Origin: Nonlabens dokdonensis DSW-6
Lineage (GTDB): Bacteria > Bacteroidota > Bacteroidia > Flavobacteriales > Flavobacteriaceae
Reading direction: 5' to 3'
NCBI RefSeq assembly: GCF_000332115.1
Contig: NC_020156.1
Location: forward strand, 3,783,501-3,847,500
DNA: 64,000 nt
Part shown: positions 383-63,992 of the stretch, piece after piece
How positions within the stretch are numbered: the first letter of the stretch is position 1
How the letters are laid out: every line of letters starts with the position of its first letter
Program-made: the position numbers and the translations under genes
The notes under the pieces: model-generated
The model's input: the letters and a program-made list of their open reading frames with translations, nothing else
Told to the model about the DNA's origin: nothing
The model's database searches: none

Positions 383-404
383 TTCCGCTTTCGCGAAAGC
401 GGAA
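383..404. repeat. Palindromic repeat, copy 1 (intergenic, 22-bp perfect)
   Basis: This is the longest perfect copy: 11 bp each side of a CG centre, core GCTTTCGCGAAAGC at 387-400. It lies 30 nt ahead of the cytochrome start, downstream of the promoter-like box, so it could fold as a hairpin in the leader RNA. Confidence 0.9.
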
Positions 405-434
405 ACTTTAATAATAATTAAAAAATAAACGACT

Positions 435-881
435 ATGTTTAACGATTTATCTAAGGGTCTGGCAATAATTTCTGGCTTAATATTAACCATGATTCTCGTC
501 ATATTTGGTGCTGCATTTTTTGTTGCCCAAGAACAACAAAAGTATACTATTCAAGCGCCACAAGAACCTATCGAAGTGAAACCTCCAGTAGTGCTTACAG
601 AACAACAAGAACTAGGAGAATCCCTTTTCAAAACAAATTGTGCTTCTTGTCATAAAAGATATAAAAAAGCCGTGGGACCTGCCTTGTATGGTGTAACGGA
701 GCGTCGTGATCAAGAATGGTTGTATAAATGGATAGTGAATAGTTCGCAACTTATTCAATCTGGAGATGCGCAAGCAGTTGCCATATACAATGAGTACAAT
801 CAGTCTAACATGAATGCCTTCCCGCAATTATCAAATGATGATATAGATGCCATTTTATCTTGGGTAGAGATTCCTAAATAA
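435..881 (+). CDS. Membrane-anchored c-type cytochrome (class I)
   Basis: This is a 148-residue protein with one N-terminal membrane segment (about residues 8-31), a Pro/Glu-rich linker and a mono-heme cytochrome c domain. The heme site is C69-A-S-C72-H73, and M126 in MNAFPQL is the probable sixth iron ligand. It should be anchored in the inner membrane with the heme domain in the periplasm, passing electrons in respiration. The small class I fold resembles cytochrome domains linked to terminal oxidases or nitrous-oxide/nitric-oxide systems, but no such partner is adjacent, so the redox partner is unknown. The ATG start is supported by the signal-anchor directly behind it. Confidence 0.85.
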   Translation: MFNDLSKGLAIISGLILTMILVIFGAAFFVAQEQQKYTIQAPQEPIEVKPPVVLTEQQELGESLFKTNCASCHKRYKKAVGPALYGVTERRDQEWLYKWIVNSSQLIQSGDAQAVAIYNEYNQSNMNAFPQLSNDDIDAILSWVEIPK

Positions 882-949
882 TTAACAAGACATTACAAAC
901 GCAATGCAAGGTTAATTGTAAATTTATCCTCTAATTAAAAATTAAATTC

Positions 950-1450
950 ATGGCAACGATCACAATTGGAGGAAACGAAATTTCAACTAGTGGACAACTT
1001 CCAGAAGTAGGAACCCAAGCACCAGACTTTAAACTCAAAAAAGCCGACCTTTCTGAAGCTTCTCTTAACGACTATAGTGGTAAACGTGTTATCTTAAATA
1101 TCTTTCCTAGTATAGATACAGATGTATGCGCTACATCAGTACGTAATTTTAATAAACGTGCAACAGAACTTGATAATACTGCTGTATTATGTATATCTAG
1201 AGATACTCCATTTGCTCAAAAACGATTTGCAAACGATGAAGAAATAGAGAACGTAGAGAATTTAAGCGATGTGATAGATGGTTCTTTTGGTGAAAAATAT
1301 GGTTTAACCATGACATCAGGACCTCTTGCCGGTTTTCACTCTAGAGCTGTAATTGTTCTCGACGAACAAGGAAAAGTGATGTACAACGAGCAAGTTCCAG
1401 AAATTGCAGACGAACCTAATTACCTAGAAGCTCTTAAATCGCTTTTATAA
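950..1450 (+). CDS. tpx: Thiol peroxidase Tpx
   Basis: This is a 166-residue peroxiredoxin of the Tpx class, which reduces hydrogen and alkyl peroxides. The peroxidatic site is in SIDTDVCATSVR with C60 as the attacking cysteine. C81 lies in AVLCISRDTPFAQ and matches the structural cysteine C82 of the E. coli enzyme. The resolving cysteine expected after the KRF motif (E. coli C95) is alanine (A94), and the protein has no third cysteine. It may therefore work as a 1-Cys enzyme or be resolved by another thiol. Length and the rest of the fold are normal. The next gene begins directly after its stop codon. Confidence 0.93.
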   Translation: MATITIGGNEISTSGQLPEVGTQAPDFKLKKADLSEASLNDYSGKRVILNIFPSIDTDVCATSVRNFNKRATELDNTAVLCISRDTPFAQKRFANDEEIENVENLSDVIDGSFGEKYGLTMTSGPLAGFHSRAVIVLDEQGKVMYNEQVPEIADEPNYLEALKSLL

Positions 1451-1935: not shown

Positions 1936-4359
1936 ATGGCGCGTAAAAAATCTACAACCAAAAAATCTACAGCAAAGACTAAAAAACCTTTGCAAATCCC
2001 TAGCTTTAAACTCAATAGATTACAACAAGTAATTCTAGGTAGTGCGCTCATGGTTTTCAGCCTATTATTGTTGTTCTCCTTTACTTCCTTTTTATTTACT
2101 GGAGCTCAAGACCAGAGTATCATTGAAGAATTGGGCGGCCGCAGCGTAGTAACTCAAAACTGGATCAGCCAGCTGGGTGCATGGTTAGGACACGTATTTA
2201 TTTATAAAGGATTTGGTATTCCCGCATTTTCTATAGCGATTATGACTTTTATCTCTGGAATTTATTTATTTGCCAGTGGTGATGATGCGTTCTCGCTTTC
2301 GCGAAAGCGGATTTCTAACCTATGGTTTTGGGGATTGCTATTAATGTTGTGGTTTTCTGTCACTCTAGGATTTTTTCATAAATCTAATGCCTTGTTAGGC
2401 GGAAAAGTGGGCTATGAATTGAATGATTTCCTGCAAGATTATTTAGGTCTTATAGGTGCTGTTTTAGTCATGGTTTTCATTGCGATCGTTTATCTCGTAT
2501 TGAGATTAAAACTAACTCCTGAAATTATCAGTGCCTATTTTTCTAAGAAAGCAGGAGAAGTAAAAGAAGAATTTGACGGAATTGCATCTACCGACGAAGA
2601 GAGTGAATGGGAGAAAGCTACTGTAGAAGGCAGCTCGCTAGAAGATGAAACTGTAACAGAAGAACCTATTAACCTTTCTGGAAATGATATGGAGGTTACT
2701 GTTCCTGAAGAAGAAATTATTCCAGAACCGGTTTTAAAGAAAACGGTCGCGCCTAAAGATGAGGACGACATAGGAATGGATATCGAGCCTACTCAAGAGG
2801 AAGAAGAAGTGGATAATAAAGCTTCTAAGCTTGTGGAGGATTTTGGCGAATTTGATCCTACTTTAGAGCTGAGCAATTTTCAATTTCCACCTATTGATCT
2901 ATTGAAGGATTACACCAAAGGGAAAACCATCACGATCAATGAAGAAGAGCTGCAAGCTAATAAAGATCGTATTGTTGAAACACTCAAGAATTACAAAATT
3001 GGGATCGCAAAAATCAGTGCTACCATAGGACCTACGGTAACACTTTATGAAATTGTACCTGAGGCAGGAATACGTATTTCAAAAATCAAAAATCTAGAAG
3101 ACGATATCGCCTTATCGCTTGCTGCGCTGGGAATACGTATCATCGCTCCTATTCCAGGAAAAGGAACTATAGGAATTGAGGTGCCTAATCAAAATCCGTC
3201 CATAGTATCTATGCGATCGGTTATTGCATCGCCTAAGTTTCAAAATGCAGAGATGGAACTTCCTATCGCATTTGGTAAAAATATCTCTAATGAAACCTTT
3301 GTAGTAGACCTTGCCAAAATGCCTCACCTACTTATGGCTGGTGCGACTGGACAAGGTAAATCTGTAGGATTGAATGCGATTCTTACTTCGCTACTTTATT
3401 CCAAGCATCCAGCAGAAGTAAAGTTTGTTTTGGTAGATCCTAAAAAGGTAGAATTGACCTTATTTAATAAAATAGAGCGTCATTACCTAGCTAAATTACC
3501 TGATAGTGAAGAAGCGATCATTACTGACAACTCTAAGGTAATCAACACCTTGAACAGTCTTTGTATTGAGATGGATCAACGTTACGATATCCTGAAAGAC
3601 GCGATGTGTCGTAACTTAAAAGAATACAACGCAAAGTTTAAAGCACGCAAACTGAATCCAGCAAATGGTCATAAATTCTTACCGTACATCGTACTGGTAG
3701 TAGATGAGTTTGCCGACTTGATCATGACCGCTGGAAAAGAGGTAGAAACACCTATTGCTAGACTTGCCCAACTGGCTCGTGCGATAGGAATTCATTTAAT
3801 AATAGCAACTCAAAGACCATCGGTAAACGTAATTACTGGTATGATCAAGGCTAACTTCCCTGCAAGAATCTCCTTTAGAGTAATGCAAAAGGTAGACTCG
3901 CGCACCATTCTAGATAGTGGTGGCGCAGACCAGTTGATAGGTCGTGGAGACATGTTATACACCGCAGGAAACGAGTTGATACGTATTCAGTGTGCATTTG
4001 TGGACACTCCAGAGGTTGAAAAAATCACCGATTTCATAGGCGGTCAGAAGGCATATCCAGACGCACATTTACTGCCAGAATATGTAGGTGAAGATGGTGG
4101 CACAAGTCTTGATAATAATATAGACGATAGAGATGCAAAATTTAAAGAAGCTGCAGAAATTATTGTTGTGGCTCAACAAGGAAGTGCCTCGCTTTTACAA
4201 CGTAAATTAAAGTTGGGATACAATCGTGCCGGCCGTATTATCGATCAACTGGAGGCTGCAGGTATTGTAGGCGGCTTTGAAGGTAGTAAGGCGCGACAAG
4301 TTTTAATTCCAGATTTAGCTTCTCTAGAAGTGTTTTTAAATGAAGAAAGTAATAAATAA
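1936..4359 (+). CDS. ftsK: DNA translocase FtsK
   Basis: This 807-residue protein pumps chromosome ends across the closing division septum. The N-terminal part (to about residue 190) holds four membrane helices. An acidic, low-complexity linker (about 205-300) follows, then the RecA-like motor with Walker A GATGQGKS at 469-476 and Walker B VVDEFADL from about 588. A C-terminal winged-helix gamma domain (about 735-800) reads DNA polarity signals. Length is typical for Bacteroidota. A copy of the palindromic repeat at 2294-2309 is read in frame as part of FSLSRKRIS in the membrane domain. It is followed after 3 nt by lolA, so the two probably share a transcript. Confidence 0.97.
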   Translation: MARKKSTTKKSTAKTKKPLQIPSFKLNRLQQVILGSALMVFSLLLLFSFTSFLFTGAQDQSIIEELGGRSVVTQNWISQLGAWLGHVFIYKGFGIPAFSIAIMTFISGIYLFASGDDAFSLSRKRISNLWFWGLLLMLWFSVTLGFFHKSNALLGGKVGYELNDFLQDYLGLIGAVLVMVFIAIVYLVLRLKLTPEIISAYFSKKAGEVKEEFDGIASTDEESEWEKATVEGSSLEDETVTEEPINLSGNDMEVTVPEEEIIPEPVLKKTVAPKDEDDIGMDIEPTQEEEEVDNKASKLVEDFGEFDPTLELSNFQFPPIDLLKDYTKGKTITINEEELQANKDRIVETLKNYKIGIAKISATIGPTVTLYEIVPEAGIRISKIKNLEDDIALSLAALGIRIIAPIPGKGTIGIEVPNQNPSIVSMRSVIASPKFQNAEMELPIAFGKNISNETFVVDLAKMPHLLMAGATGQGKSVGLNAILTSLLYSKHPAEVKFVLVDPKKVELTLFNKIERHYLAKLPDSEEAIITDNSKVINTLNSLCIEMDQRYDILKDAMCRNLKEYNAKFKARKLNPANGHKFLPYIVLVVDEFADLIMTAGKEVETPIARLAQLARAIGIHLIIATQRPSVNVITGMIKANFPARISFRVMQKVDSRTILDSGGADQLIGRGDMLYTAGNELIRIQCAFVDTPEVEKITDFIGGQKAYPDAHLLPEYVGEDGGTSLDNNIDDRDAKFKEAAEIIVVAQQGSASLLQRKLKLGYNRAGRIIDQLEAAGIVGGFEGSKARQVLIPDLASLEVFLNEESNK
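2294..2309. repeat. Palindromic repeat, copy 2 (inside ftsK)
   Basis: 16-bp CGCTTTCGCGAAAGCG, translated here in the frame giving LSRK in the loop between membrane helices of FtsK. Confidence 0.9.
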
Positions 4360-4362: not shown

Positions 4363-5013
4363 ATGAACATGAAAAATTATTTCCTATCTGTTTTTATGAT
4401 TTTCGCTTTCGCGAAAGCGGTAACGGCACAAGATGCTAAGGCAGATAAATTGCTTAATGAAGTAGCTGAAAAATTTAAGTCTTATGATAATGTCTCTTTT
4501 GACTATAAATTAAACATCAAAAATCCAAAGACAGGAACAGATCGAGATATGCAAGGAGATGCAAAAATGTCTGGAGAAAAATACAATGTCAATTTTGAAG
4601 GCACCAATTTAATTTTTGACGGGAAAAAGCAATATGCTATAGATAAGGCAAATGAACAAGTAGATATTTCTAAAGTAAGTAAGGATGATGATCAAGCGAT
4701 CACTCCTTCTAACATACTAACCTTTTATGAAAAAGGATACATTAAAACATGGGATATTTTACAAAATGAAGGTGGTAGAAAAATCCAATTTGTAAAATTA
4801 ACTCCCATAAAATCAGATTCTGAATATAAAAACGTTCTTTTAGGAATAGATGTTAATACAAAACATATTTATAAGGCAATCATCACAGACACTTCTGGAA
4901 ATGTTGTGACGTTTTTTATGAAGTCTCTTAAAACTAATGAACCATTACCTAAAAATTCATTTACCTACGATCCTTCTAAATACAAGAATTGGACAATCCA
5001 AGAAATGAATTAA
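4363..5013 (+). CDS. lolA: LolA-like outer-membrane lipoprotein carrier
   Basis: This 216-residue protein has a signal peptide, with likely cleavage after VTA at residue 22, and then a LolA-like half-barrel. It should carry lipoproteins across the periplasm from the LolCDE complex to the outer membrane. Family features are the N-terminal DAKADKLLNEVAEKFKSYDN segment and a C-terminal TFFMKSL-PKNSFTYD region. The palindromic repeat at 4404-4419 encodes AFAKA at residues 15-19, part of the signal peptide itself. An ATG at 4369 (Met3) is an equally possible start. The gene is 3 nt behind ftsK and 38 nt ahead of the permease gene. Confidence 0.88.
   Translation: MNMKNYFLSVFMIFAFAKAVTAQDAKADKLLNEVAEKFKSYDNVSFDYKLNIKNPKTGTDRDMQGDAKMSGEKYNVNFEGTNLIFDGKKQYAIDKANEQVDISKVSKDDDQAITPSNILTFYEKGYIKTWDILQNEGGRKIQFVKLTPIKSDSEYKNVLLGIDVNTKHIYKAIITDTSGNVVTFFMKSLKTNEPLPKNSFTYDPSKYKNWTIQEMN
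4404..4419. repeat. Palindromic repeat, copy 3 (inside lolA signal peptide)
   Basis: 16-bp perfect copy, translated as AFAKA within the hydrophobic and cleavage region of the LolA signal peptide. Confidence 0.9.
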
Positions 5014-7684: not shown

Positions 7685-7700
7685 CGCTTTCGCGAAAGCG
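7685..7700. repeat. Palindromic repeat, copy 4 (between ribB and murQ)
   Basis: 16-bp copy filling most of the 38-nt gap between ribB and murQ, ending 11 nt before the murQ ATG. Confidence 0.9.
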
Positions 7701-11284: not shown

Positions 11285-12488
11285 TTTCTACCATTATCAA
11301 GCGCAAACCACGCCATTTGCGCCAGGCTTAGAAATAGAAAGCGCATCTGGGAATTATATAGTTGATACAGCTGGAAATAAATACCTCGATATGGTAGCTG
11401 GCGTGAGTGCATTGCCATTAGGCCATTGTCATCCAGCAGTCACAAAAGCCATTAAAGATCAAGTAGATCAATACATGCACGTCATGGTTTACGGCGAGTA
11501 CACGCAACAACCTGCCGTAGAGCTATGTAAAAAGTTAGCCTCACTCCTGCCCGATCCTTTAGAAACCACCTATCTAGTTAATAGTGGTACAGAAGCGATG
11601 GAAGCCGCTATCAAACTTGCAAGAAGAGTTACTGGAGCTACAGAAATCATAGCCATGAATAAATCCTATCACGGCAATACTATGGGATCACTTAGTTTAA
11701 TGAATTATGAAGAGCGCAAGGCACCTTTTAGACCATTATTACCCAGTATATCACATATAAAATTCAATTGCCTTCAAGACTTAAGATTGATTACCGAAAA
11801 GACCGCTGGAGTAGTGATCGAAAGCATTCAAGGTGGTGCCGGATTTATAGTACCCAGAAAACAATGGATGCAAGAATTAAGAAAACGATGTACTCAAACT
11901 AACACGTTATTGATCGTAGATGAGATTCAGCCTGGAATAGGCCGCACGGGAACCATGTTTTATTTTACCCAACATGATATTATTCCAGACATGGTGATTA
12001 CTGGTAAAGGCCTAGCTGGCGGCATGCCTATAGGAGCATTAACTACCAGTAAAGAACATATGAGCCGCTTCAAAGAAGAACCCATGCTAGGTCATATCAC
12101 GACTTTTGGTGGTCATCCTGTAATAGCAGCTGCAGCCTTAGCAACACTTATAGAAATTGAAGAAGGCAAGTACATGGATAAGATGTTAGAAAAAGAGTTA
12201 CGCTTTCGCGAAAGCTTACAACACAAAAACATCAAAGAAATAAGAGGTAAAGGTCTCATGCTAGCAGCTATTCTAACAGATGATAGATTTACAGCACAAA
12301 TTGTTGAAGAGTGCCGAAATCGAGGTGTGATTTTTTTCCTTCTTTTATTTGAAAAAAGAGCCATTAGAATTACGCCACCTTATACCATAACCGATTCTGA
12401 AATTGATCACGCCTGTAAAATATTACTTGAAGTAATTGATATTTTCTACTTAAACTTATCCAAAGGACACCTGTTTATAAGTTGTTGA
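11271..12488 (+). CDS. Class III PLP-dependent aminotransferase
   Basis: This 405-residue fold-type I aminotransferase is of the ornithine/acetylornithine/4-aminobutyrate group. PLP contacts are visible in NSGTEAMEAAIKLARRVTG and DEIQPGIGRTG, with the Schiff-base lysine K246 in TGKGLAGGMPIG. The amine substrate cannot be assigned; there is no arginine-biosynthesis neighbour. The palindromic repeat at 12202-12215 is read in frame as RFRES in a surface helix. The last 15 residues after LLEVID (IFYLNLSKGHLFISC) extend past the usual family end and may reflect a lost stop or a small 3' frameshift. Confidence 0.85.
   Translation: MTKSDFYHYQAQTTPFAPGLEIESASGNYIVDTAGNKYLDMVAGVSALPLGHCHPAVTKAIKDQVDQYMHVMVYGEYTQQPAVELCKKLASLLPDPLETTYLVNSGTEAMEAAIKLARRVTGATEIIAMNKSYHGNTMGSLSLMNYEERKAPFRPLLPSISHIKFNCLQDLRLITEKTAGVVIESIQGGAGFIVPRKQWMQELRKRCTQTNTLLIVDEIQPGIGRTGTMFYFTQHDIIPDMVITGKGLAGGMPIGALTTSKEHMSRFKEEPMLGHITTFGGHPVIAAAALATLIEIEEGKYMDKMLEKELRFRESLQHKNIKEIRGKGLMLAAILTDDRFTAQIVEECRNRGVIFFLLLFEKRAIRITPPYTITDSEIDHACKILLEVIDIFYLNLSKGHLFISC
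12202..12215. repeat. Palindromic repeat, copy 5 (inside class III aminotransferase gene)
   Basis: 14-bp core only; the 16-bp form is broken by T at 12216. Translated as RFRES. Confidence 0.85.
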
Positions 12489-19987: not shown

Positions 19988-22900
19988 TTAATTTTTTATA
20001 AATCTTTTTACCACAGTTCTAGTAGCTTGCTCAATATTCAATAAATAAATACCACTTTCTAATATCTGAAGGTTTTTAATTTCAATAACGCCATTCGCCG
20101 GTGATTCTTTAAATGATTTTACGACTTGACCTAAAGAGTTAAGCACTTTAATATTCACATCTTGACCAGAATCAAGATTTTCTATAGTTAAAATTGAATT
20201 GCCTAAAGGATTAGGGTATAATGTTACCGCTTTCGCGAAAGCGGAATCATCAACCGATAACGTACTATCACTAAACTTTATAGAAAACCTATCTGCTGCA
20301 TAGCTCGATGGCTGTGAAGGATCAAAAACGACTGAAAAGCTATTAAGACCTTGGTTTAAAACTGTTTCTGTAAGTAGGTAGTGATCCACCCAAATTGCTT
20401 GAAGACTAGAGAAATCATTATTCACCTCAACGGTATAGTCGTTACCAGTTAATCCATTCAATTCTAAATTAATAATTTCACCATCTGAAGGTGTATTTGA
20501 TTTAAGGATACTTAAAAATTGGTTGTTTTTAGATATTGCTAGGTTCTCATCTGGATTTTGAAACTTGACTGCACCAGCATCTATTACCTGATTAGCATCA
20601 AATCCCATTATAACACCATCTCTTGCAAGACCTGTATTCAACTCAGTATCTTTATACAATGAAATTGCTATCATCTCACCATTGTTAGAATTACGGTAAA
20701 CATTGTTAGTGTCTGTAGAACTTACTTTGAAAGATTGCTTGAATCTCATACCAGGTGTTAAACCTGCATTATCACCATCTTCAGAAGTGACTACAAATAC
20801 TGCTTGACCAGGCTGAAGAAATTGATCTACCTCAGAGCCTCCTACATTGTTCATGCTCAATCCAAAATCATATGTCACATAAGCTCCATTATCTCCTATC
20901 GTTGGGTCCCAAGCATAGTATACTGTTTCATTAATATCTTCCGTATCAGCATCTGCCATAAGGGTAGCAAAATTTACTTGAGCTTGATAAGGATTTGCAA
21001 TGAAGTTGAACGCACCATCTGTAGTAGATAGATTGTTAATATCAACAAAGCTATTTGACAAAGCACCTTTAGTTCTTAAAATTGTACTCGTTGAAGGTGC
21101 GTTTGCTGTAGTAAGAGAAACACTTCTATCACCTCTTATAAATAATCTGTATGCATTTCCTGGCGATAGAGAATTTGCATTTGTATTAGTCACTCCTTGC
21201 CAAACTTGGCTTACATTGCTGTAAGTAAACATAGAAACCGCATTTGATCCAGATTGATCAAAACCATTAGCTAGAGTACCACCGGTAATATGCGTTCCAA
21301 AACCACTTTCATAACCCAAATCACCTGGGTTAAGTCCACTTTGTTGCCAGTTATCAAAGATACTTCCTGTAGAAGTCTCTACTGTAGATCCAACTAATCG
21401 ATAAGCTCTTTTATCAGAATAATATTGTTCCACAGTTACATCTCCGATAATTGAACCGCTCAGTACAGGGGCAACAACAGCGCTTTTACCAGCGCTACTT
21501 GTTAATTTAAGATTACTATTAGTATTTAATGCGCCATTTGATAATGTAAGCACGCCTTCTAAACTAACTGCACCATTGAGACTAACACCGTTTGCATTGT
21601 TTAAAATTAAGTTTTCTAATATAATATTATCGACATTTAAGTTTTGTAAGTCTACGCCTGCAAAATTTATCGAGGCTTCACTACCCATTAATGTACTACC
21701 GGCTGGCGAACTTACATCACCTACTAAATTTAAAGTATTAGCTCCTAGGTCTAAACTTGAAGATCCTAAAAGTGTTAAATTATTCATATCCACATCTCCT
21801 GTAAATGCTATAGAGCCTTCTGCTATTAGAACATTATTGCTAGTTGTAGAATTACCTTCTGGAGTAGATGGTGTCCATGAAGAATTATTATAAACGTAAT
21901 ACGGAATACCTCTCAAATTACTTATTAGTGCATTATTTAAATCTCCATTCCCAAATCCAGGAGTTGCATTAGAAGCTGCGACTGTAGACCAGTTAGCTTC
22001 CATTGCTAACTCTGATAATGATACCAAATTGCTATTATAGCCCTTAGCGTTACCACTACCAGGACTCTCAACAGAAGCATTAGGATGTGTAATCGCCATA
22101 TCATGAATTATATTTGAGCTTGCATCTCTAATTACAGCTGTATCATCACCATCAGAATTACCAAACGATCCCCAAGAGCCAGTAAAATAAGTTGCATTGT
22201 TAGAAGCAATAGTAACAGATAGGTCGGAAAAATCAGTATCAGGAGTAATAACTCCATCCACGTCACTGGCATTATAAACTACAATAATCGTTCCCGCTGA
22301 TACAGCAGACCATGCCATGTCATTGCTAAAAGTCACAAAAGAGGTGAAGCTTCCATCGTCATTATCACCTAATTCAAAGCCACGCATATCAAGATTATTT
22401 TGAACTACTAATAATTCAGCCCATTCTTTTGACCCACCACTACCTTGAGACATTTCATTAATAATAACGCTTATAGCGACTGGATCTTGAACAAGGTAAG
22501 ATTGCTCAGCAGATGTTGTTGTTTCTCTATCCATTACATTCATAACATTATCTGTTGCAACAATTTGAAAGTATACATTAGTACCGTCGGCTTGTGTAGG
22601 AATTTGAGCAAAATAAGTATCACCTCTATCGAGCATCATAGTTATAGGAGCTTGATCATAAACACCAGGTGAAAAACCATATTGAATTTCTACATTTGAT
22701 AAACCCTCAGCATCAGTTACATCTGCTGCTACTCCTACTAGGTCTGATGATGTAGGACTACTAGGATTAATATCAATATTGGAAATTACAGGTGCTGGAT
22801 TACTTGTACTTGAAGTATCTGTAACTTGAAATACCGATATGTCGTATCCATCACCTCCACCATTTTCGTTAAATTCAAATCCTACAATTAGACTAGTAGC

Positions 22901-23616: not shown

Positions 23617-24756
23617 TTACTTCTTAAAAACCTTCAATATAGAACTTTTGATTCGCGATCTATCATTGTCGTTTAGATTAGAGCCAGAAGGTAGACAGAG
23701 CCCGTTTTCAAATAGTGTTTCACACACTTTATTCCCATAATAAGGAAAATCTTCACATAATGGCTGTAAATGCATAGGTTTCCAAAGTGGTCTGGACTCA
23801 ATATTGTCTGCCTTTAGGGCTAGTCTTAAATCTTCTCTAGTGATACCGCCTGTTTTTGAGGAATCTACAAGAATTACAGTCAACCAGTGGTTAGACGCAA
23901 TATCCTTACTGTATTCTTTTTGAACCCTTACTCCTTCAATATCCTTAAATATTTCTTGATAAAATTTGTTCATTCTTTGTCTCAAAACAATGTACTTATC
24001 AAGCACTTCCATTTGTCCACGACCTATTCCAGCGCTGATGTTGCTAAGCCTATAATTATAACCTACTTCACTATGTTGATAATGAGGAGCTTGATCTCTT
24101 GCTTGAGTAGCTAGAAAAACGGTCTTATCTTTTGTTTCTTTAGAATGACACACCAAGGCTCCACCACCGCTGGTAGTTATTACCTTGTTACCATTAAAGC
24201 TTAAAACTCCATAATCTCCAAATGTCCCACATTTTCTACTTTTATATGTGCTACCTAGCGCCTCTGCACTATCTTCTATAACTGGTATTTTGTGCGCTTT
24301 CGCGAAAGCATGAACCTCATCGATCTTATAAGGCATGCCGTATAAGTGGACGGCTAGTATTGCTTTAGGCTTTTTACCTTTAGAAATACGGTCTTCAACG
24401 GCTTCCTTGAGCGCTTTAGGGCAAATATTCCACGTATCTTTCTCACTATCTACTAAGATAGGTCTAGCTCCTAAATAAATTATAGGATTTACAGTTGCAC
24501 AGAATGAAAAGCTTTGACATATAACTTCATCATCAGGACCAACACCTGCCTGAACAAGAGCTAAATGAATAGCTGCAGTTCCACTAGAAAGTGCTGCTAT
24601 ATGAGTATTTTCTTTTAAATATGACTCTAAATCTTTTTCAAACCCATTAATATTAGGACCGATAGGTGCAACCCAATTAGTATCAAAGGCTTGTTTTACA
24701 AAATTTAATTCTGATCCTGAAAGATGTGGGGATGAGAGCCATATTTTATTATCCAT
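23617..24756 (-). CDS. DegT/DnrJ/EryC1-type sugar aminotransferase
   Basis: This 379-residue PLP enzyme adds an amino group to a keto-sugar nucleotide. The cofactor loop is ALSSGTAAIHLAL, the aspartate lies in VIEDSAEALGS, and the Schiff-base lysine is K191 in LSFNGNK. It resembles PglE-type 4-aminotransferases, and the PglF-like dehydratase at 17912-19861 could supply a UDP-4-keto substrate; an RmlB product (dTDP-4-keto) is the alternative. ATG 24756 is preferred over TTG 24765. The palindromic repeat at 24296-24309 encodes AFAKA at residues 150-154, in a helix before the PLP aspartate. It is the last gene of the leftward cluster. Confidence 0.88.
   Translation of the reverse strand: MDNKIWLSSPHLSGSELNFVKQAFDTNWVAPIGPNINGFEKDLESYLKENTHIAALSSGTAAIHLALVQAGVGPDDEVICQSFSFCATVNPIIYLGARPILVDSEKDTWNICPKALKEAVEDRISKGKKPKAILAVHLYGMPYKIDEVHAFAKAHKIPVIEDSAEALGSTYKSRKCGTFGDYGVLSFNGNKVITTSGGGALVCHSKETKDKTVFLATQARDQAPHYQHSEVGYNYRLSNISAGIGRGQMEVLDKYIVLRQRMNKFYQEIFKDIEGVRVQKEYSKDIASNHWLTVILVDSSKTGGITREDLRLALKADNIESRPLWKPMHLQPLCEDFPYYGNKVCETLFENGLCLPSGSNLNDNDRSRIKSSILKVFKK
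24296..24309. repeat. Palindromic repeat, copy 7 (inside DegT aminotransferase gene)
   Basis: 14-bp core only (outer pair C/A does not match). Translated as AFAKA in EVHAFAKAHKIP. Confidence 0.85.
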
Positions 24757-31992: not shown

Positions 31993-32447
31993 TGTCGTTT
32001 TTCTATTATAGTATCAAAATAGTCCAATTCAAATCTTACCTCATCTTTAATCGCATTAAGAGAGTAATTTGAGAATACTCCCAAACAGTGTTCTTTAGTC
32101 TTTGCTTTTATACAAGAAACATAACCAGGTGGGACGTATAAAACCTGAGGTTTATCGCATGACAATTCAAATAGGCTACATCTAACCTTATCACCTTTTT
32201 TATAATCTTCAAAAGCAATTAAACTTAATGAAATAGTTCCTTTCAGAGATTGAAACCACCTGCTTTCTATTTTATGGCCTTGCCATCCTCTCTCAAAGTT
32301 AGTATCACAGTTAGAAATTTGATAAAATCTTCGTATTTCTTTTAAATCAAAATCATTAACAAAAATCACGCTGCCACGACTATCTTCCACACTGCCTCCG
32401 TTAATTATATAGGGTTCTTTTATTTTATTGCTTTCGCGAAAGCGCAT
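31989..32447 (-). CDS. RmlC-like cupin, sugar epimerase/isomerase family
   Basis: This is a 152-residue single cupin domain. DSRGSVIFVNDFDL and RGWQGHKIESRWFQSLKG resemble dTDP-4-keto-rhamnose 3,5-epimerases and 3,4-ketoisomerases, but the metal-site pattern differs from both, so the substrate is open. It is inserted between CapE and CapF, which already carry all activities needed for FucNAc, and could act on that or on an RmlB product, as no true rmlC is present. Its start lies within the end of the CapE gene, and its first residues, RFRES, come from the palindromic repeat. Confidence 0.72.
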   Translation of the reverse strand: MRFRESNKIKEPYIINGGSVEDSRGSVIFVNDFDLKEIRRFYQISNCDTNFERGWQGHKIESRWFQSLKGTISLSLIAFEDYKKGDKVRCSLFELSCDKPQVLYVPPGYVSCIKAKTKEHCLGVFSNYSLNAIKDEVRFELDYFDTIIEKRQ

Positions 32448-43680: not shown

Positions 43681-43696
43681 CGCTTTCGCGAAAGCG
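43681..43696. repeat. Palindromic repeat, copy 9 (between LegG and PtmE genes)
   Basis: 16-bp copy in the largest gap (272 nt) of the sugar cluster. The rest of the gap is AT-rich with no recognised gene, promoter box or terminator. Confidence 0.9.
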
Positions 43697-51852: not shown

Positions 51853-51868
51853 CGCTTTCGCGAAAGCG
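51853..51868. repeat. Palindromic repeat, copy 10 (between 4-epimerase and dehydrogenase genes)
   Basis: 16-bp copy in a 38-nt gap, just ahead of the TviB-like start codon. Confidence 0.9.
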
Positions 51869-51875: not shown

Positions 51876-52844
51876 TTACAAATTATTCCAATACCAATCT
51901 ACTGCCAGATTTAGCCCTTTTTTGATATCGTATTTAGGGTCATACTCAATGATTTCTTTTGCTTTCTGGATGGAGGCTAATGAATGTGGTATATCTCCAT
52001 CTCTTGTAGGACCGTAAATAACCTCGACATCTTTTATTGACTCATCATATCGAGAAAGAGCTTCTTTAAGTAGGTCAACTAAGGAATTCAAATCGGTTTG
52101 TTCTCCGCACGCTACATTAAAAATATTATTAGCTGATTTAGGGTTAGTAGAAAGCATTGCTCTTTCGTTAGCTTGAATCACATTATCTATATAGGTAAAA
52201 TCGCGTGAAAAAGAACCATCACCATTAATAATTGGAGATTCTTTGTTCATAAGCTTTTTTGTAAAAAGAGGTATTACTGCGGCATAAGCGCCTTCGGGAC
52301 TTTGTTTTCTACCAAAAACATTAAAATAACGTAAACCTATCGCATTAAACCCATAAGATTTATAAAAAACACCAGCATATAGCTCGTTAACAAATTTAGT
52401 AACAGCATAAGGGGATAAAGGCTTACCTATAATCCCTTCCTTCTTAGGTAGTTCCTGAGAATCTCCATAGGTAGAAGAACTTGCAGCGTAAATCATTTTT
52501 TTAACTCCTGCGTTATTAGAAGCGACTAGCATATTCAAGAAACCTCCAACGTTAACTTCGTTAGAGGTTATAGGATCTTTGAGTGACCTTGGCACGCTTC
52601 CTAACGCCGCTTGATGCATAACAAAATCTCTTCCTTTAACAGCTGCATCACATGTTGTTACATCTCTAATATCTCCTTCAATAAATTTAAAATTAGGATA
52701 GCTTGCTAGATGCTCAATATTCTTAAAATGACCAGTAGAAAGATTATCAAGAGCTAAAACATCGTAACCTTTTTTACAAAAGTATTCTGATAAATTACTA
52801 CCTATGAAACCTGCTGCTCCTGTAATTAATAGGTTGTTTTTCAT
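51876..52844 (-). CDS. UDP-GlcNAc 4-epimerase, TviC/WbpP-like
   Basis: This 322-residue SDR interconverts UDP-GlcNAc and UDP-GalNAc. It shows ITGAAGFIGSNLSEYF, AASSSTYGD, the catalytic YAVTK and RYFNVFGRKQSPEGAYAAVI. The last motif is characteristic of the WbpP/TviC group. Paired with the following dehydrogenase it would supply UDP-GalNAcA. A 73-nt gap separates it from rmlA. Confidence 0.9.
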   Translation of the reverse strand: MKNNLLITGAAGFIGSNLSEYFCKKGYDVLALDNLSTGHFKNIEHLASYPNFKFIEGDIRDVTTCDAAVKGRDFVMHQAALGSVPRSLKDPITSNEVNVGGFLNMLVASNNAGVKKMIYAASSSTYGDSQELPKKEGIIGKPLSPYAVTKFVNELYAGVFYKSYGFNAIGLRYFNVFGRKQSPEGAYAAVIPLFTKKLMNKESPIINGDGSFSRDFTYIDNVIQANERAMLSTNPKSANNIFNVACGEQTDLNSLVDLLKEALSRYDESIKDVEVIYGPTRDGDIPHSLASIQKAKEIIEYDPKYDIKKGLNLAVDWYWNNL

Positions 52845-56966: not shown

Positions 56967-59012
56967 TTATTTAATTCCTTTCCTTAACCAAGCTTCGTAA
57001 ATATCTACCTCTGGAGTATAATCTATTGGATCTCCTACATCATTACCTTTGGAATCTTTAATTACATACAAAGGTTGCGCAGCAGTCTCATAATTATTTC
57101 TTTGAAATTCCATCCACTTGTCTCCAATTGTCCTTACCTTTTTTCCAGTCTCTTTTGAAACATATTGTTCATTCTCAGGAAGCTTATTTCTGTCATCCAC
57201 ATAAAGCGATATGAGTACAAAATCATTCTTTAACATGTTTAAAATTCTTGGCTCACTCCATACACGCTCTTCCATTTTACGACAGTTCACACATGCCCAA
57301 CCTGTGAAATCGATTAATATAGGCTTATCAACTTTTTGGGCATAAGCAAGACCTTTATCATAATCATGAAAGGCTATGATATCATGAACAGCTAGATGAG
57401 CGCCTTCAGGAACTTTCTTATTCAATTCAAGTTTTGTGTACCCTACTCCATATGGAGATTCAGCATAATTTAAAGGTGGCGGAAAACCTGAAATAATTTT
57501 TAAAGGTGCTCCCCAAAGACCTGGAATCATGTAAATCGTAAAAGTGAGAACCACTAATCCTAATATCAGTCTACCTACAGAAATACTTTCCTCGGGACCG
57601 TCATGAGGTAACTTAATCTTACCAAATAAATAAAGAGCTAACCCACCAAAAATTGCTATCCAGATGGTAATAAAGACTTCCCTTTCTATAAAATGAGTTT
57701 GATAAACCAAGTCTGCAGCAGATAAGAATTTGAGTGCTAAAGCGAGTTCTAAAAATCCTAATACCACTTTTACTGTATTCAACCAGCCACCAGATTTAGG
57801 CAACGAATTCATCCAACCTGGAAAGATCGCAAATAAGGCAAACGGCAATGCAATCGCTAGTGAAAAACCAAGCATTCCTATAACTGGAGCTAATCCTCCT
57901 TTAGAAGCTGCCTCTACAATTAAAGAACCTACTATTGGCCCTGTACAAGAGAATGAAACTATAGCGAGTGCTAACGCCATAAAGAAAATTCCAGCTATGC
58001 CGCCTCGATTTGCTTTTTCGTCTGCTTTGTTAGCCCAAGATTGTGGTAACGTAATTTCAAAAGCTCCAAGAAACGATATCGCAAAAACCACAAGAATCAA
58101 AAAAAACACAATATTAAAGTACACATTGGTACTTAATTCATTTAACGACTCCGAACCAAATATAGCAGTAACAACAGTTCCTAATAAGACGTAAATAACA
58201 ATTATGAAAATACCATATAAAATAGCATTGGAAATTCCCTTTGCTCTATTCTTACTCTGCTTAGTGAAAAAACTCACCGTAAGAGGAATCATAGGAAAAA
58301 CACAAGGTGTTAACAAGGCAGCAAAACCTGACAAAAATGCAATGATAAAAATTCCCCAAAGACTACGATCTTCCTCCTCGTCCTCTTCTAAAGCTTCTTC
58401 TTTATCTTTTTTTTTTGGTGTTTCTACTTCTTGATCAGGCGCTTTATGGCCATCCTTAACTGGGATTTCTGATTCTGGAGCTGCTTGTGCTAGCATAGGT
58501 TCTAGCTCTTCGTCTAAATAACGTTCTATGACATCCTCAGCACCTTCTGGTACTTGTGCATTAGAATCTAACTTGTAAATAAGCGGTTTTCCTGTAGGTC
58601 TTAAACAACGTTCCTCATCACAAGTCATGAAATAAGCTTCACCTACAATATATTTTAAATTAGGATCGAGCACCTTAATTTTTTGCTTAAAAACAGCAAT
58701 ATCTGAAAATTGATACACGTTAAATTCCCATACCGGAGAAAACTCAGCATAAGAACCAGTTTCCTTATTAATTCCCACCAACTCGATTTTATTCTCTACT
58801 TCATAAAAACTAATAGTTGTTGCAATAGGACCTCGATCACCTACAGATGTTTGTGAATATAAATGCCATCCTGGTTCTATAATAGCAGTTGTTACCAGTT
58901 CATATTCTGTATCAGACAATTTATTTACCTCAGTAGTCCACGTTGTAGGATCTTCTTGTGCAAATAGTTGTAAAGAAATGAGGGCTGTTAAAGCAAATAG
59001 AAGCTTTCTCAT
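56967..59012 (-). CDS. dsbD: Thiol:disulfide interchange protein DsbD
   Basis: This 681-residue inner-membrane protein has a signal peptide and an N-terminal DsbD-alpha-like domain (about 20-165), then an acidic lysine-rich linker, and an eight-helix CcdA-type domain (about 215-490) whose redox cysteines lie in LTPCVFPMIPL and VSFSCTGPIVGS. A C-terminal thioredoxin domain (about 540-681) has active site C574-V-N-C577. It passes electrons from cytoplasmic thioredoxin to the periplasm for cytochrome maturation and disulfide isomerisation. It overlaps tilS by 4 nt. Confidence 0.94.
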   Translation of the reverse strand: MRKLLFALTALISLQLFAQEDPTTWTTEVNKLSDTEYELVTTAIIEPGWHLYSQTSVGDRGPIATTISFYEVENKIELVGINKETGSYAEFSPVWEFNVYQFSDIAVFKQKIKVLDPNLKYIVGEAYFMTCDEERCLRPTGKPLIYKLDSNAQVPEGAEDVIERYLDEELEPMLAQAAPESEIPVKDGHKAPDQEVETPKKKDKEEALEEDEEEDRSLWGIFIIAFLSGFAALLTPCVFPMIPLTVSFFTKQSKNRAKGISNAILYGIFIIVIYVLLGTVVTAIFGSESLNELSTNVYFNIVFFLILVVFAISFLGAFEITLPQSWANKADEKANRGGIAGIFFMALALAIVSFSCTGPIVGSLIVEAASKGGLAPVIGMLGFSLAIALPFALFAIFPGWMNSLPKSGGWLNTVKVVLGFLELALALKFLSAADLVYQTHFIEREVFITIWIAIFGGLALYLFGKIKLPHDGPEESISVGRLILGLVVLTFTIYMIPGLWGAPLKIISGFPPPLNYAESPYGVGYTKLELNKKVPEGAHLAVHDIIAFHDYDKGLAYAQKVDKPILIDFTGWACVNCRKMEERVWSEPRILNMLKNDFVLISLYVDDRNKLPENEQYVSKETGKKVRTIGDKWMEFQRNNYETAAQPLYVIKDSKGNDVGDPIDYTPEVDIYEAWLRKGIK

Positions 59013-60340
59013 AATTCTAGGGTTATTTCTATAATTGATTTTGTGTTTTCTGTAATGCTGTAATGTTTACTGGCTCTTATTCCTAATAGCCAGATGATGT
59101 CGCTACCGTTTTCCAATACTAATGATTTTTCTCGTTTTAAAGAAGAAATTTTAGCATCTGTTAATATATCACTTATTAATTTAGTTCCCTTCATACCATA
59201 AGGACTCATGCGATCACCATGTTTCCAAGTTCTCAACTTTAAGATACCTTGAACCAAACTAGCATCTAGAAGTAATTTATTTGGGTTTGGTAAAACGGTT
59301 TGTAAAAACTTTTTAGGCTCCTCGGTTGATATTATATTGATACTTAATTGCCCTTCTGGAATTGATACAACACCGTTTTTAAGTTCAATTTCTTGATCAA
59401 CTATGGGAATTGCCTCGATCTTTCTTAGTTCCAAAAAAGAATTATTCTTAATTAATTGCATAGAACCAGCAACTAAATACTTTCCGTTTTCGGCATCTAG
59501 TAATTCTAGAGCATCAGGCATATGAAATGAGTATTCTCTGAGAAGCTCAAAAAGATAAGCACTTGGCTGGACAGTAGCTTTTAACTTTTCAATATTTATA
59601 AAGAGATTACCATTATTTATTTTAGTTCCGCTTTCGCGAAAGCGGGCTACCTCAACATCTAATAACAATTCTGAATCTTTAAGATAACTAAGAGTTTTTG
59701 AAAAGTTATTATCTAGATGAGGCAAAACTTCCTTAAGCAAGGGAATTAGATCGTGACGTAGTTTATTGCGCAGGTATTTTGTTGAGGCGTTGCTACTGTC
59801 TTCTCGCCATTTGATTTTGTTTTGAAGTGCATACTCCTCAATTTCCTTACTAGAAAAATCTAATAAAGGGCGTAAGATGATGCCATTGCGATCTCTTATA
59901 CCAGTCAAACCATGAATTCCAGCGCCACGACCTAAGTTAATTAGAAAGGTTTCTAATTGATCGTCTATGTGATGTGCTACTAATACATGAGCTATTTTAT
60001 TATCTGACACTATAGTATTAAATGCCTCATATCTCAAATCTCTAGCTGCCATTTGAATACTGATTCCTCCTTGCTCAGCAACATTAGTGGTGTCAAAATG
60101 AACAATATGTATTTTATGTTCTAAACGAGTTGCAAGTGCTTTGACAAAATCCTCATCTTGATCACTCTCTGCTCCTCTCAAATTAAAATTACAGTGAATG
60201 AGTTCCAACTTGAGCTTACATGCATGTAATAGATGGGCCAACACAACACTATCCTTTCCTCCACTACAAGCCACGGCAATTTCACTGGAAAGAATCTCAG
60301 GAAAGTTAGTTTTGATATGTTTTTTGAACCTTTCTAGCAT
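59009..60340 (-). CDS. tilS: tRNA(Ile)-lysidine synthase TilS
   Basis: This 443-residue ATP-dependent enzyme converts the CAU anticodon wobble C of minor tRNA-Ile to lysidine, an essential step. The PP-loop ACSGGKDS spans 24-31. The N-terminal catalytic half (RGAGIHGLTGI) and the C-terminal TilS domain (about 365-440, WKHGDRMSPYGMKGTKLISD) are both present. The palindromic repeat at 59629-59644 encodes RFRES in VARFRESGTK. It overlaps pabB by 1 nt and dsbD by 4 nt. Confidence 0.95.
   Translation of the reverse strand: MLERFKKHIKTNFPEILSSEIAVACSGGKDSVVLAHLLHACKLKLELIHCNFNLRGAESDQDEDFVKALATRLEHKIHIVHFDTTNVAEQGGISIQMAARDLRYEAFNTIVSDNKIAHVLVAHHIDDQLETFLINLGRGAGIHGLTGIRDRNGIILRPLLDFSSKEIEEYALQNKIKWREDSSNASTKYLRNKLRHDLIPLLKEVLPHLDNNFSKTLSYLKDSELLLDVEVARFRESGTKINNGNLFINIEKLKATVQPSAYLFELLREYSFHMPDALELLDAENGKYLVAGSMQLIKNNSFLELRKIEAIPIVDQEIELKNGVVSIPEGQLSINIISTEEPKKFLQTVLPNPNKLLLDASLVQGILKLRTWKHGDRMSPYGMKGTKLISDILTDAKISSLKREKSLVLENGSDIIWLLGIRASKHYSITENTKSIIEITLEL
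59629..59644. repeat. Palindromic repeat, copy 11 (inside tilS)
   Basis: Extends to 18 bp (59628-59645). Read as RFRES between the catalytic and middle domains of TilS. Confidence 0.9.
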
Positions 60341-61672: not shown

Positions 61673-61680
61673 CAAAGGTA
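61673..61680 (-). promoter_or_regulatory. TAnnTTTG promoter box for pabB-tilS-dsbD
   Basis: TACCTTTG on the - strand, only 7 nt ahead of the pabB ATG. The transcript would be leaderless or nearly so. Confidence 0.4.
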
Positions 61681-61699
61681 AGATTTGTGAAGAAAGCAT

Positions 61700-61727
61700 A
61701 ATGCTATTTTGATTAAAAAATAGCATT
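61700..61727 (-). terminator. Possible terminator downstream of the TonB receptor gene
   Basis: Inverted repeat AATGCTATTTT/AAAATAGCATT (61700-61727) with a 6-nt loop, in the 77-nt gap after the receptor gene. No T-run follows on the - strand, so it may be a processing hairpin or weak terminator. Confidence 0.4.
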
Positions 61728-61742
61728 TTAAAGACTTAAATT

Positions 61743-63992
61743 TTAAAACGAATACTGCAAAGTACCTCGTATGAAAAAAGGAGTTCCTGGAGTAAAATGT
61801 ATTTCTTCTACAGATTGTGACTCATTTGCAAGTCTAGACTCTGTAGCAAATTGAGTTTCATTCCATTCTACATCAAAAAGGTTTTGTACCGCGATTCCTA
61901 ACCTTAAATTATTAGATAGATCATAATTGACATTGAAATCTGTCACAAAATAGCCTTCGGCAACAATAGAATTATCTTCATTTGCAGCTCGATCTCCTAT
62001 GTATCGGTATCTTAAACCAGCATTAAATTTTTTATAATTTTTTAAACTAATTCCGCCTACTAGAGTAAGCTCTGGCGCAAGAGGTATAAAATCTTCGCCA
62101 TCTGGTTCTTCAATTGCTCTTGCATGAGCATAATTGATGTTACTGTCTAAGAACAAATACTGTGATAGTTGATATTTAAAACCAAGATCAAATCCATAAC
62201 GTTCTGTCTTACCGCTAGGCTCTACAATTCCTGCATCTCCCACGTACACAAATTCTTGTTCTAAAAATAAATACCATAATGCACTGTTTAAAATAAACTT
62301 ATCACTTACTTTCCAGATCGAGCCTAAATCACTTCCATAAGACTTTGGTAAAATTTTATCAGCACTGTTTTCTAACACTACTCTTGTGTCATTACTGTGC
62401 AATCCTACTCCATTTCTCAAGTACAATTTTAAGCTATTACTAACTTCATAATTAAAATTTAGTTTAGGTAATAAAGCTTCGGCAGTTTGTGATTGAGTAT
62501 TATAAGTGGTCGCTAGCGCATCTTTATAGTTAAATTTAAATCTTTCAAATCTCAGACCAGCATCTATCATTAAGTTGTCAATAAACCACTCTGCTCCTAC
62601 AAAAGCAGATGCATTTGTTTCATTAATATCACCTAACTGTATATTTTCTAGAGTTTGTCTTCTGTTTAAAGTTCGTGATAATCCAGAAGATTCAGTTCTA
62701 TCATTACGCAATCCTAGACCAGCTTTAATATTGAATCGATTACCTGCGAGCTCTGTTTTATATTTATAATCTGCCTTAAAACCTAGCATGTCACGAGATT
62801 CTTGTTGTCTTATTTGATCGCCATTGATAGGGTCTTCAAGAAAAAATGTGAAGTTAGAAAATAGTAGAAAGTCATAGTGAGAATAAAATAAGGTAGTTTG
62901 TAATTCTTCTTTATCACTTACATCCATATCATAATTAAGTACCAAACTTGTTCTAGAAGTCTCTCCACCTTCGGTATCATCTATGGCGCCAAATCTGTTG
63001 ATAATTCCCTGATCAACTGCTCTTTGAGGAATTTGACCGCTAGCATCCCATTCACTGTCAAAATGAGAAACACTCATACTGAAGCGGTCTCCATTATCTG
63101 CAGTATGTTGTAGTTTACCAAAAAGGTTAATCCTATCAAAATTCTGCGGACTTTCAAAAGGGCCATCAAAGGTCAAATACTCAGTAGCCACATAAGCTGA
63201 AGTATGTGAGTTATCTACTAGTTGCGCTAGCCCTAAATAACGCTGATAATTAAAGTCTCCTATTTCAAAAGTTATATTGCTCTTATCTAAGTAATTTTTA
63301 GTTCTAAAATCTACATGTCCAGCAGTGGCAAAATTACCTACGGTTTCATCATAACTTCCTACACCGTATGAAATGTTATTGATAGTTTCTGGAATCACAA
63401 AATGAAGATCTGCATATCCTTGTCCATGAGCATGAGATACCATGTTTACCGGCATTCCATCTACATTAATTGCGATATCAGTACCATGATCTATATCAAA
63501 ACCTCTCAGAAAAATTTGTTCTGCTTTCCCGCCACCAGCGTGTTGACCTATAAAAAGTCCTGGTACCGTTCTCAGTAATTCTTGAGTAGAAGTTACTGGA
63601 TTAATTTTTAAATCTACATTAGCAAGTACATTAAGCGTTTCTACGTCATTACTAATTGTTATGGCATCCAGATCAAGAGAAGCTAATTTCAGCACTACTT
63701 GCTGGATTTCTTTCTCGTCGTTCACAATAACTGTGGTTGCCTCATAACCTATATGTGAAAAGCGTAATTCATCATTTTTCTCAACATCGTCTAGTGAAAA
63801 ATATCCTTTTGCGTTAGTATGTGTGTGATTGCCAGACTCCATATGCAATACATAAACGTCTTTGAGTGGTTTACCAGTTTCGTCTTTTACAAAACCAGTA
63901 ATGTTGTGTGCTACAATGAAGTGTGAAATGAAGAAAAATACTGTTGTTAATGCCGCTTTCGCGAAAGCGGGAAAAGTAAATTTAAAAGTCAT
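61743..63992 (-). CDS. TonB-dependent outer-membrane receptor
   Basis: This 749-residue protein has a signal peptide (to about residue 29, IVAHN), a carboxypeptidase-regulatory-like domain (about 30-110, ITGFVKDETGKPLKDVYVL), a plug domain (about 120-225, TSTQELLRTVPGLFIGQ, IFLRGFDIDHGTDIAINVDGM) and a 22-strand barrel ending in FIRGTLQYSF. His-rich segments (HMESGNHTHT, MVSHAHGQGYADLH) hint at a metal or metal-chelate ligand, but the substrate is unassigned. The palindromic repeat at 63954-63969 encodes AFAKA at residues 9-13, inside the signal peptide. Its promoter lies outside the window. Confidence 0.93.
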   Translation of the reverse strand: MTFKFTFPAFAKAALTTVFFFISHFIVAHNITGFVKDETGKPLKDVYVLHMESGNHTHTNAKGYFSLDDVEKNDELRFSHIGYEATTVIVNDEKEIQQVVLKLASLDLDAITISNDVETLNVLANVDLKINPVTSTQELLRTVPGLFIGQHAGGGKAEQIFLRGFDIDHGTDIAINVDGMPVNMVSHAHGQGYADLHFVIPETINNISYGVGSYDETVGNFATAGHVDFRTKNYLDKSNITFEIGDFNYQRYLGLAQLVDNSHTSAYVATEYLTFDGPFESPQNFDRINLFGKLQHTADNGDRFSMSVSHFDSEWDASGQIPQRAVDQGIINRFGAIDDTEGGETSRTSLVLNYDMDVSDKEELQTTLFYSHYDFLLFSNFTFFLEDPINGDQIRQQESRDMLGFKADYKYKTELAGNRFNIKAGLGLRNDRTESSGLSRTLNRRQTLENIQLGDINETNASAFVGAEWFIDNLMIDAGLRFERFKFNYKDALATTYNTQSQTAEALLPKLNFNYEVSNSLKLYLRNGVGLHSNDTRVVLENSADKILPKSYGSDLGSIWKVSDKFILNSALWYLFLEQEFVYVGDAGIVEPSGKTERYGFDLGFKYQLSQYLFLDSNINYAHARAIEEPDGEDFIPLAPELTLVGGISLKNYKKFNAGLRYRYIGDRAANEDNSIVAEGYFVTDFNVNYDLSNNLRLGIAVQNLFDVEWNETQFATESRLANESQSVEEIHFTPGTPFFIRGTLQYSF
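63954..63969. repeat. Palindromic repeat, copy 12 (inside TonB receptor signal peptide)
   Basis: Extends to 18 bp (63953-63970). Read as AFAKA in the N-terminal part of the signal peptide, the same peptide as in lolA. Confidence 0.9.

Follow-up and report, generated by a model that had tools for sequence, protein, structure and literature searches.

The palindrome and its setting in the window

The subject of this report is a 14-bp perfect palindrome, GCTTTCGCGAAAGC, that occurs in 12 exact copies in a stretch of 64,000 nucleotides from the chromosome of Nonlabens dokdonensis DSW-6 (contig NC_020156.1, positions 3,783,501 to 3,847,500), hereafter the window. Eight of the copies lie inside open reading frames (ORFs, which were called mechanically throughout) and four between them; one of the host genes, of 807 aa, is presumably of the FtsK type (Table 1). 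No other word of the window comes within two mismatches of GCTTTCGCGAAAGC, and 100 dinucleotide-preserving shuffles of the window contained on average 0.08 words at that distance. An earlier note on this DNA, made from the letters of the window, had counted 12 copies, nine of them at least 16 bp long and four of 18-22 bp, and had placed eight inside genes; all 12 are present and exact, and the measured palindrome lengths and ORF positions agree with those figures.

Table 1. Copies of the palindrome along the window, with one example of the full-length element.
Feature	Position	Palindrome length (bp)	Setting	Counterparts and remarks
Core palindrome	387..400	22	between ORFs	arms TTCC/GGAA
Full element of ~40 bp, example	374..413			core plus 13-bp arms; arm consensus from 161 sites
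Core palindrome	2295..2308	16	within 807-aa gene, presumably FtsK-type	intact in eight of the nine Nonlabens-clade loci L021-L029, L024 having two substitutions
Core palindrome	4405..4418	16	within gene after ftsK; encodes AFAKA in N-terminal (signal-peptide-like) stretch	exact in L021, L027; substitutions at the same place in L022, L023
Core palindrome	7686..7699	16	between ORFs	exact in L022, L023, L028
Core palindrome	12202..12215	14	ORF 11271-12488	exact in L022, L023, L025, L026, L027, L029; first base changed in L028
Core palindrome	20229..20242	18	ORF 19988-23380	
Core palindrome	24296..24309	14	ORF 23617-24765	
Core palindrome	32430..32443	14	overlap of ORFs 31989-32447 and 32425-33468	
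Core palindrome	43682..43695	16	between ORFs	
Core palindrome	51854..51867	16	short gap between ORFs 50557-51837 and 51876-52844	
Core palindrome	59630..59643	18	ORF 59009-60340	
Core palindrome	63955..63968	18	near start of ORF 61743-63992	encodes AFAKA

When three of the window copies were folded as single-strand hairpins, energies of -5.6 to -9.1 kcal/mol were obtained. A reading of the motif as a single-strand hairpin was set aside, as one of the three was not clearly better than its shuffles (31 of 200 equally good). Between positions 12001 and 20000 of the window the GC skew flips from positive to negative at about 16 kb, near a switch of genes from the plus to the minus strand at a polysaccharide-type cluster.

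Copy number and exactness

The genome of N. dokdonensis (G000, a single contig of 3,914,632 bp) contains 857 exact copies of the 14-mer, or 0.22 per kb, and none of the same word read backwards. Judged by the FtsK-type gene, its closest named relative is the N. dokdonensis isolate 35_9_T64 (98%). Allowing up to two mismatches raises the total to 956, that is by 99, and gives 15 for the reversed control. The density in the window (12 in 64 kb) is slightly lower than that of the genome as a whole (857 in 3.91 Mb), so that there is no local clustering. The view of the earlier note that the palindrome is a genome-wide signal, found both in and between genes, is borne out by these counts, which lie far above the expectation from base composition and are not confined to the window.

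How sharply the word is defined can be seen in a 744-kb sample of the genome, made up of the window plus 34 further 20-kb stretches. Words with zero, one, two and three mismatches number 163, 8, 5 and 17, against 0.0017, 0.075, 1.56 and 19.8 expected from a first-order Markov model; the ratios of observed to expected are 97829, 106, 3.2 and 0.9, and words with three mismatches are therefore at expectation. That such a 14-mer should be essentially absent by chance, as had been supposed, holds under this model.

Taxonomic distribution

All 22 of the other Nonlabens genomes that were searched carry the motif, in 288-787 copies, and 16 genomes of other genera searched alongside them carry none. 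In a sample of 397 genomes of the family, 80 have at least one copy, and outside Nonlabens only two exceed 19: G242, of the Dokdonia clade (857), and G226, of a third genus (408). The inner 10-mer, TTTCGCGAAA, picks out the same three groups (893 in the N. dokdonensis genome, 1107 in G242 and 559 in G226), with 34 the next highest count elsewhere. Matches were found in 22 genomes of a phylum-wide sample of 395, and none of these has more than six except N. dokdonensis itself. Among 80 named loci around the FtsK-type gene, copies are present in 8 of 9 from the Nonlabens clade, in 3 of 3 from Dokdonia and in 0 of 68 others.

A protein tree of FtsK, which represents one gene and a quick method, places G242 inside the Dokdonia clade and leaves G226 unplaced. 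The tree needs four changes of motif label, at least three of them forced by well-supported branches, with one locus (L087) called motif-poor from 13 kb alone; the trait thus appears to be patchy, which may reflect several gains, transfer of the presumed reader protein, or losses. In Leeuwenhoekiella, FtsK-type genes hold a one-mismatch copy (L030 near 10579, L045 near 10519) at a position that differs from that in Nonlabens, and two genomes of that clade, G180 and G364, have nine and six exact copies. A system since lost may have left these copies behind.

The idea that other genera have palindromes of their own was rejected, because across the 68 other-genus loci (1.39 Mb, some 20 kb per locus) no 10-, 12- or 14-bp palindrome with four or more G/C is present three times in one locus. 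The 14-mer and its inner 12-mer are absent from the open full-text literature searched, a body of text outside which subscription papers and preprints fall; in the same open texts no literature on highly iterated palindromes in flavobacteria was found, and papers that mention both Nonlabens and palindromes deal, to judge by their titles, with different subjects. In PMC4390886, which treats highly iterated palindromes, neither 'bacteroid' nor 'flavobacter' occurs.

Anatomy of the element

Conservation is not limited to the 14 bp. At 161 of the 163 sites of the sample (two near stretch ends were dropped), symmetric conservation reaches about 13 bp into either flank, giving an element of about 40 bp whose arm consensus reads C-1, Y-2, Y-3, T-4, T-7, T-10 and T-13, with the mirror image on the opposite side. 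The arms are stronger at intergenic sites (n = 60; C-1 0.94, T-4 0.92, T-10 0.79, T-13 0.72) than at genic sites (n = 101; 0.89, 0.66, 0.71 and 0.60), and the 3-bp step of the arm T's is therefore not a codon effect. Beyond about 13 bp little sequence is shared, and at the intergenic sites no position out to -30 exceeds 0.21 bits. G242 has a related T-rich arm pattern, of which G226 shows a weaker form. In these two genomes the ten-mer is extended to the full 14-mer at 59 of 79 and 48 of 65 sites, respectively, which indicates that the outer bases are less strict.

The two arms of a site tend to be unequal. TTCC on one side with TCTC on the other is favoured over equal arms (26 versus 7 among 60 intergenic sites; mean under permutation 15.5, P = 3.5e-4), and an asymmetric mixture model gains 78.7 log units, compared with 63.4 +/- 4.6 (maximum 73.2) in shuffled data. 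Avoidance of longer perfect palindromes explains the unequal arms equally well. Of 37 TTCC/TCTC sites, 17 have one orientation and 20 the other, and by inspection, which is no formal replichore test, the two are intermixed along the chromosome. Since no polarity is visible, an oriented site was rejected.

Intergenic DNA makes up 9.3% of the sample yet holds 37% of the sites (60 of 161), and 59 of the 101 genic sites are read in the frame that encodes AFAKA. The 56 intergenic sites with two flanking ORFs (four of the 60 lack them) are divided among tandem, convergent and divergent gaps as 32, 11 and 13, against 35.7, 7.7 and 12.6 expected by length, so that promoter or terminator gaps are not markedly preferred. 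An intrinsic terminator was rejected, as TTTT occurs within 14 nt on either strand at only 4 of the 60 intergenic sites and convergent gaps exceed expectation only to the extent just given. The idea that tight pairs of sites are self-regulated promoters of the reader's own gene was also abandoned, because nothing recurs among the four pairs inspected.

The earlier note, which put forward uptake, repair and chromosome organisation only tentatively, had compared the palindrome to HIP1 (GCGATCGC), the highly iterated palindrome of cyanobacteria, which has conserved extensions in some genomes and is tied to GATC and CGATCG methyltransferases (PMC4390886). The likeness stands insofar as both are high-copy palindromes found in and between genes. 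The word counts made here do not support a likeness in mechanism, in which the motif would be the mark of an orphan methyltransferase with a short target in the core, such as TCGCGA. HIP1 measures 8-10 bp, whereas the conserved unit here is a 14-bp core within a symmetric element, and no sub-target is enriched outside the motif: TCGCGA (44 versus 44.8 expected), GCTTTC (172 versus 186.5) and CGAAAG are near expectation, and CGCG is below it (437 versus 713, a ratio of 0.61). An internal methylase word was set aside on these counts, and a HIP1-like element as a whole is considered unlikely.

Turnover between species

Sites persist between species to an extent that their surroundings do not. Ten sequences of the Nonlabens clade, the window plus nine loci, gave 193 ordered ortholog comparisons, which are not independent of one another. 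The exact 14-mer is retained in 142, at a mean flank identity of 73.8%, and random aligned 14-mers are identical in 5.9%. In 33 of the remaining 51 comparisons the difference, with gaps included, amounts to one to three positions, and 17 of the 51 contain gaps; the clear aligned cases are substitutions at the same length. Sites are thus gained and lost mostly by substitution. In the gene after ftsK, the N-terminal stretch contains AFAKA in the window as well as in L021 and L027, and it does so too in Dokdonia (L032, L035). The distance from the site to the mature protein, read from translations, differs between the two genera, and these sites were therefore probably gained separately.

A repeat that spreads by copying, whether a repetitive extragenic palindrome (REP) or miniature inverted-repeat transposable element (MITE) or the product of a transposase, would account for many near-identical words. 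It is hard to reconcile with the pattern of loss just described, in which places with and without a site differ mostly by substitution (a REP/MITE insertion was rejected on this ground), or with the lack of shared sequence beyond 13 bp and the presence of sites in frame within conserved genes. Such an origin is very improbable.

Spacing along the chromosome

The complete list of places was examined for the first 546 kb of the N. dokdonensis genome (its first 100 places). With one 91-kb gap dropped, the remaining 98 gaps have a mean of 4585 bp and a coefficient of variation (CV) of 0.42 (95% interval 0.36-0.47), and the lowest CV among 100,000 exponential simulations was 0.67. Both tails are depleted, with two gaps shorter than 1 kb where 19 are expected and none longer than 10 kb where 11 are expected. 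Regularity extends around the chromosome: the counts in 34 windows of 20 kb, with the 64-kb window left out and none lying in the 91-kb desert, have a variance-to-mean ratio of 0.32 (P = 4e-5).

This regularity bears on whether the motif could be a bidirectional counterpart of Chi, shielding DNA ends from the host helicase-nuclease and starting recombination. The density is similar, at 0.22 per kb here and about 0.2 Chi sites per kb in Escherichia coli (PMC3784561). However, 200 kb of E. coli K-12 contain 29 Chi sites with a CV of 1.26 (27 gaps; 95% interval 0.86-1.60), which remains at 1.10 or 1.01 when the one or two largest gaps are removed and is to be set against 0.42 here with the desert dropped. 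Chi is moreover an asymmetric, oriented octamer that is recognised as a single strand, whereas the present motif is a long perfect palindrome with arms in both orientations, and symmetry with 13-bp arms would not be expected of a single-strand signal.

Phages

A second point of likeness to Chi comes from phages. No copy is present in the 35.7 kb of either of the Nonlabens phages P12024S and P12024L, whose annotations include an ERF-domain recombination protein and a YqaJ-type protein, and some phage contigs do have copies, an arrangement that resembles the phage pattern in PMC3784561. The recombinases of the motif-bearing contigs were checked only in part, from partial sequences. At least 120 viral stretches were matched; those above 45% G+C were dropped before counting, and among the stretches listed at or below that value some carry the motif with host-type arms and others lack it. 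Carriers include metagenomic contigs of tailed, integrase-bearing and Mu-like phages (L186, L207, L176, L135, L139, L144, L213, L147, L143), several of them with host-type arms. In three of these, 30 chosen proteins from partial sequence revealed, respectively, portal, prohead-protease-like, capsid and terminase proteins; an integrase and a primase; and a Mu-like transposase with a tail sheath. One phage site lies inside a prohead-protease-like gene. The Cellulophaga phage phi39:1, a distant relative of one motif-bearing contig (45% capsid identity), has 0 copies. In view of its spacing and symmetry, the motif is an improbable Chi-like site.

Motif-free stretches and apparently acquired DNA

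The 91-kb desert (G000:C1:131678-222907, L015-L019) consists for about 71 kb of very large ORFs, and the two that were scanned contain polyketide synthase (PKS) and nonribosomal peptide synthetase (NRPS) modules. This NRPS/PKS-type cluster has apparently been acquired. A 19-kb gap in the same genome holds three 518-aa ORFs that begin alike (L333:4758-13338), of which the one scanned is a DDE transposase. In G003, the motif-rich genome of another Nonlabens, gaps contain a Wadjet-type operon (L327:3345-9397; JetD_C, SMC-like and DUF3375 proteins), a relaxase gene, a secretin/T2SSE operon resembling those of type IV pili or type II secretion (L330:105-5872) beside large proteins that we take to be extracellular, and what is presumably a ribosomal-protein operon. 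As the ribosomal operon is not foreign, protein constraint also creates gaps.

The converse case is found in genera that are otherwise poor in the motif, where low-copy clusters occur. Many of those inspected lie within genes for metal efflux (L001-L004, L006-L008, L011-L014). In L002, L003, L004 and L006 the gene of an efflux outer-membrane protein has two sites 933 bp apart, one of them encoding AFAKA in the N-terminal stretch, and genome G196 shows two sites at the same distance; further carriers are RND pumps, P-type ATPases and a CusB-like protein (one copy per kind was scanned, and two of the ATPases). Some low-copy sites, for example in L005, L009 and L020, are not in efflux genes. The efflux-gene clusters may represent transfers from motif-rich donors. 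One copy of the outer-membrane protein (L007:4036-5334) lacks the N-terminal site and has a longer in-frame stretch instead, as if another repeat had been inserted.

Candidate proteins and the possibility of DNA uptake

Sites of ParB (parS) and of Noc are palindromes of 14-16 bp with TTTC...GAAA half-sites. The spacing of those half-sites differs from that in the 14-mer, and the 14-mer was rejected as a parS/Noc site because parS words exist elsewhere in the genome and no motif-specific ParB paralogue was seen. Exact parS-like words are found at G000:C1:1525833 and 1527726, 1.9 kb apart, and separate parS-like pairs are present in the five Nonlabens genomes tested and in G226 and G242. Genes with a ParB_N domain number one in seven of eight motif-rich genomes tested and two in the eighth (G014), compared with one to three in 22 motif-poor genomes. 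Several other genera also have parS-like words at the 1.9-kb distance, in their case with one mismatch.

The main rival to a protein-binding site is a DNA uptake (self-recognition) sequence, in which competent cells prefer DNA with the motif and recombination spreads it by molecular drive, as for the DNA uptake sequences (DUS) of Neisseriaceae and the uptake signal sequences (USS) of Pasteurellaceae. Those sequences resemble the present motif in having about 10^3 copies, mainly substitutional turnover, an intergenic bias, even spacing and a distribution limited to certain lineages (PMC1939737). The stepwise drop in over-representation across zero, one and two mismatches and the absence of the motif from the apparently acquired cluster also agree with uptake, as do the presence of ComEC in 13 of 13 genomes tested, motif-rich or not, and the reported preference of Riemerella columbina for self-DNA (PMC7965970).

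Several features fit less well. Uptake sequences are not palindromes, and their excess falls 82-92-fold from zero to one mismatch and then 7-9-fold, persisting over several mismatches (PMC1939737), whereas here it falls about 920-fold (97829 to 106), leaves fewer one-mismatch forms and is gone at three. This steeper fall is partly due to the 14-mer being longer than the uptake words compared. Neisseria and Haemophilus import DNA via type IV pili (PMC7965970), yet six of the eight motif-rich genomes tested (G000, G005, G013, G014, G226, G242) have no T2SSE/PilB-type ATPase above the Pfam cut-off; T2SSE is present in G003 and G006, and GspE/PilB-type ATPases are patchy in the family (74 of 397 genomes). 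Because the ATPase is so distributed and is missing from the N. dokdonensis genome, a type IV pilus was rejected as the uptake partner. Other uptake machines exist, such as type IV secretion in Helicobacter (PMC7965970), and the missing ATPase therefore weakens the case for uptake without excluding it. Motif-bearing phage contigs are not an obvious prediction of uptake either. On balance an uptake sequence is a serious candidate, if a doubtful one.

A predicted binding site for an organising protein

The chromosome of N. dokdonensis, then, carries in high copy number an exact word with symmetric arms that persists between species, turns over by substitution and, outside the deserts, is evenly spaced. 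Symmetry of the duplex over 40 bp, together with the scarcity of misspellings and the substitutional turnover, argues for recognition of the duplex by a dimeric protein, and even spacing without visible polarity or preference for gene position is best fitted by an architectural role. From these sequence patterns the palindrome is predicted to be the core of a symmetric binding site of about 40 bp for a dimeric (or tetrameric) chromosome-wide organising protein, a reading to which we give a probability of roughly 0.4.

Such a protein might form loops in the nucleoid, compact it or do something similar, and would require an anchor every 4-5 kb or so, profiting little from another one nearby. New sites would arise by point mutation where coding allows, that is in intergenic DNA or as AFAKA in signal peptides, and decayed sites would be removed by selection or conversion.

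A number of observations weigh against this prediction. The reader protein was not found in a comparison that covered the distributions of ParB, T2SSE and ComEC. Long site-free stretches are tolerated (91 kb and 19 kb in N. dokdonensis, about 16-30 kb in G003), and the CV rises to 1.63 when the 91-kb gap is kept and to 0.50 when two further stretches of the same genome are pooled with the desert still dropped. Other motif-rich genomes are less even: over 240 kb of G242 the 14-mer has a CV of 0.70 and the 10-mer one of 0.58, in G226 that of the 10-mer is 0.76 (20 gaps, 120 kb), and G003 with its deserts has 0.92. Compaction sites should be evenly spaced according to PMC1939737, but the same source reports even spacing for uptake sequences, so that architecture is not singled out by spacing.

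Implications

Few highly iterated chromosomal motifs are known to us (HIP1, USS/DUS and Chi), and HIP1 is, to our knowledge, without an agreed function. Compared with the published uptake sequences the present motif is longer and sharper, and its spacing in its own genome, outside the deserts, is far more even than that of the Chi sample; it shares with Chi a scarcity in acquired DNA (PMC3784561). A stronger proposal, which is tentative and somewhat doubtful, is that in Nonlabens, Dokdonia and the third genus a sequence-specific protein uses the ~40-bp site and its 3-bp-periodic T arms to anchor the chromosome at intervals of about 4.6 kb, with the spacing itself under selection; this would be the first dense bacterial ruler of exact anchors. 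The genera that share the motif include marine strains in culture. Stretches without the motif can flag acquired DNA, and it may serve as a tracer, in that efflux genes with a site in other Flavobacteriaceae would point to motif-rich donors.

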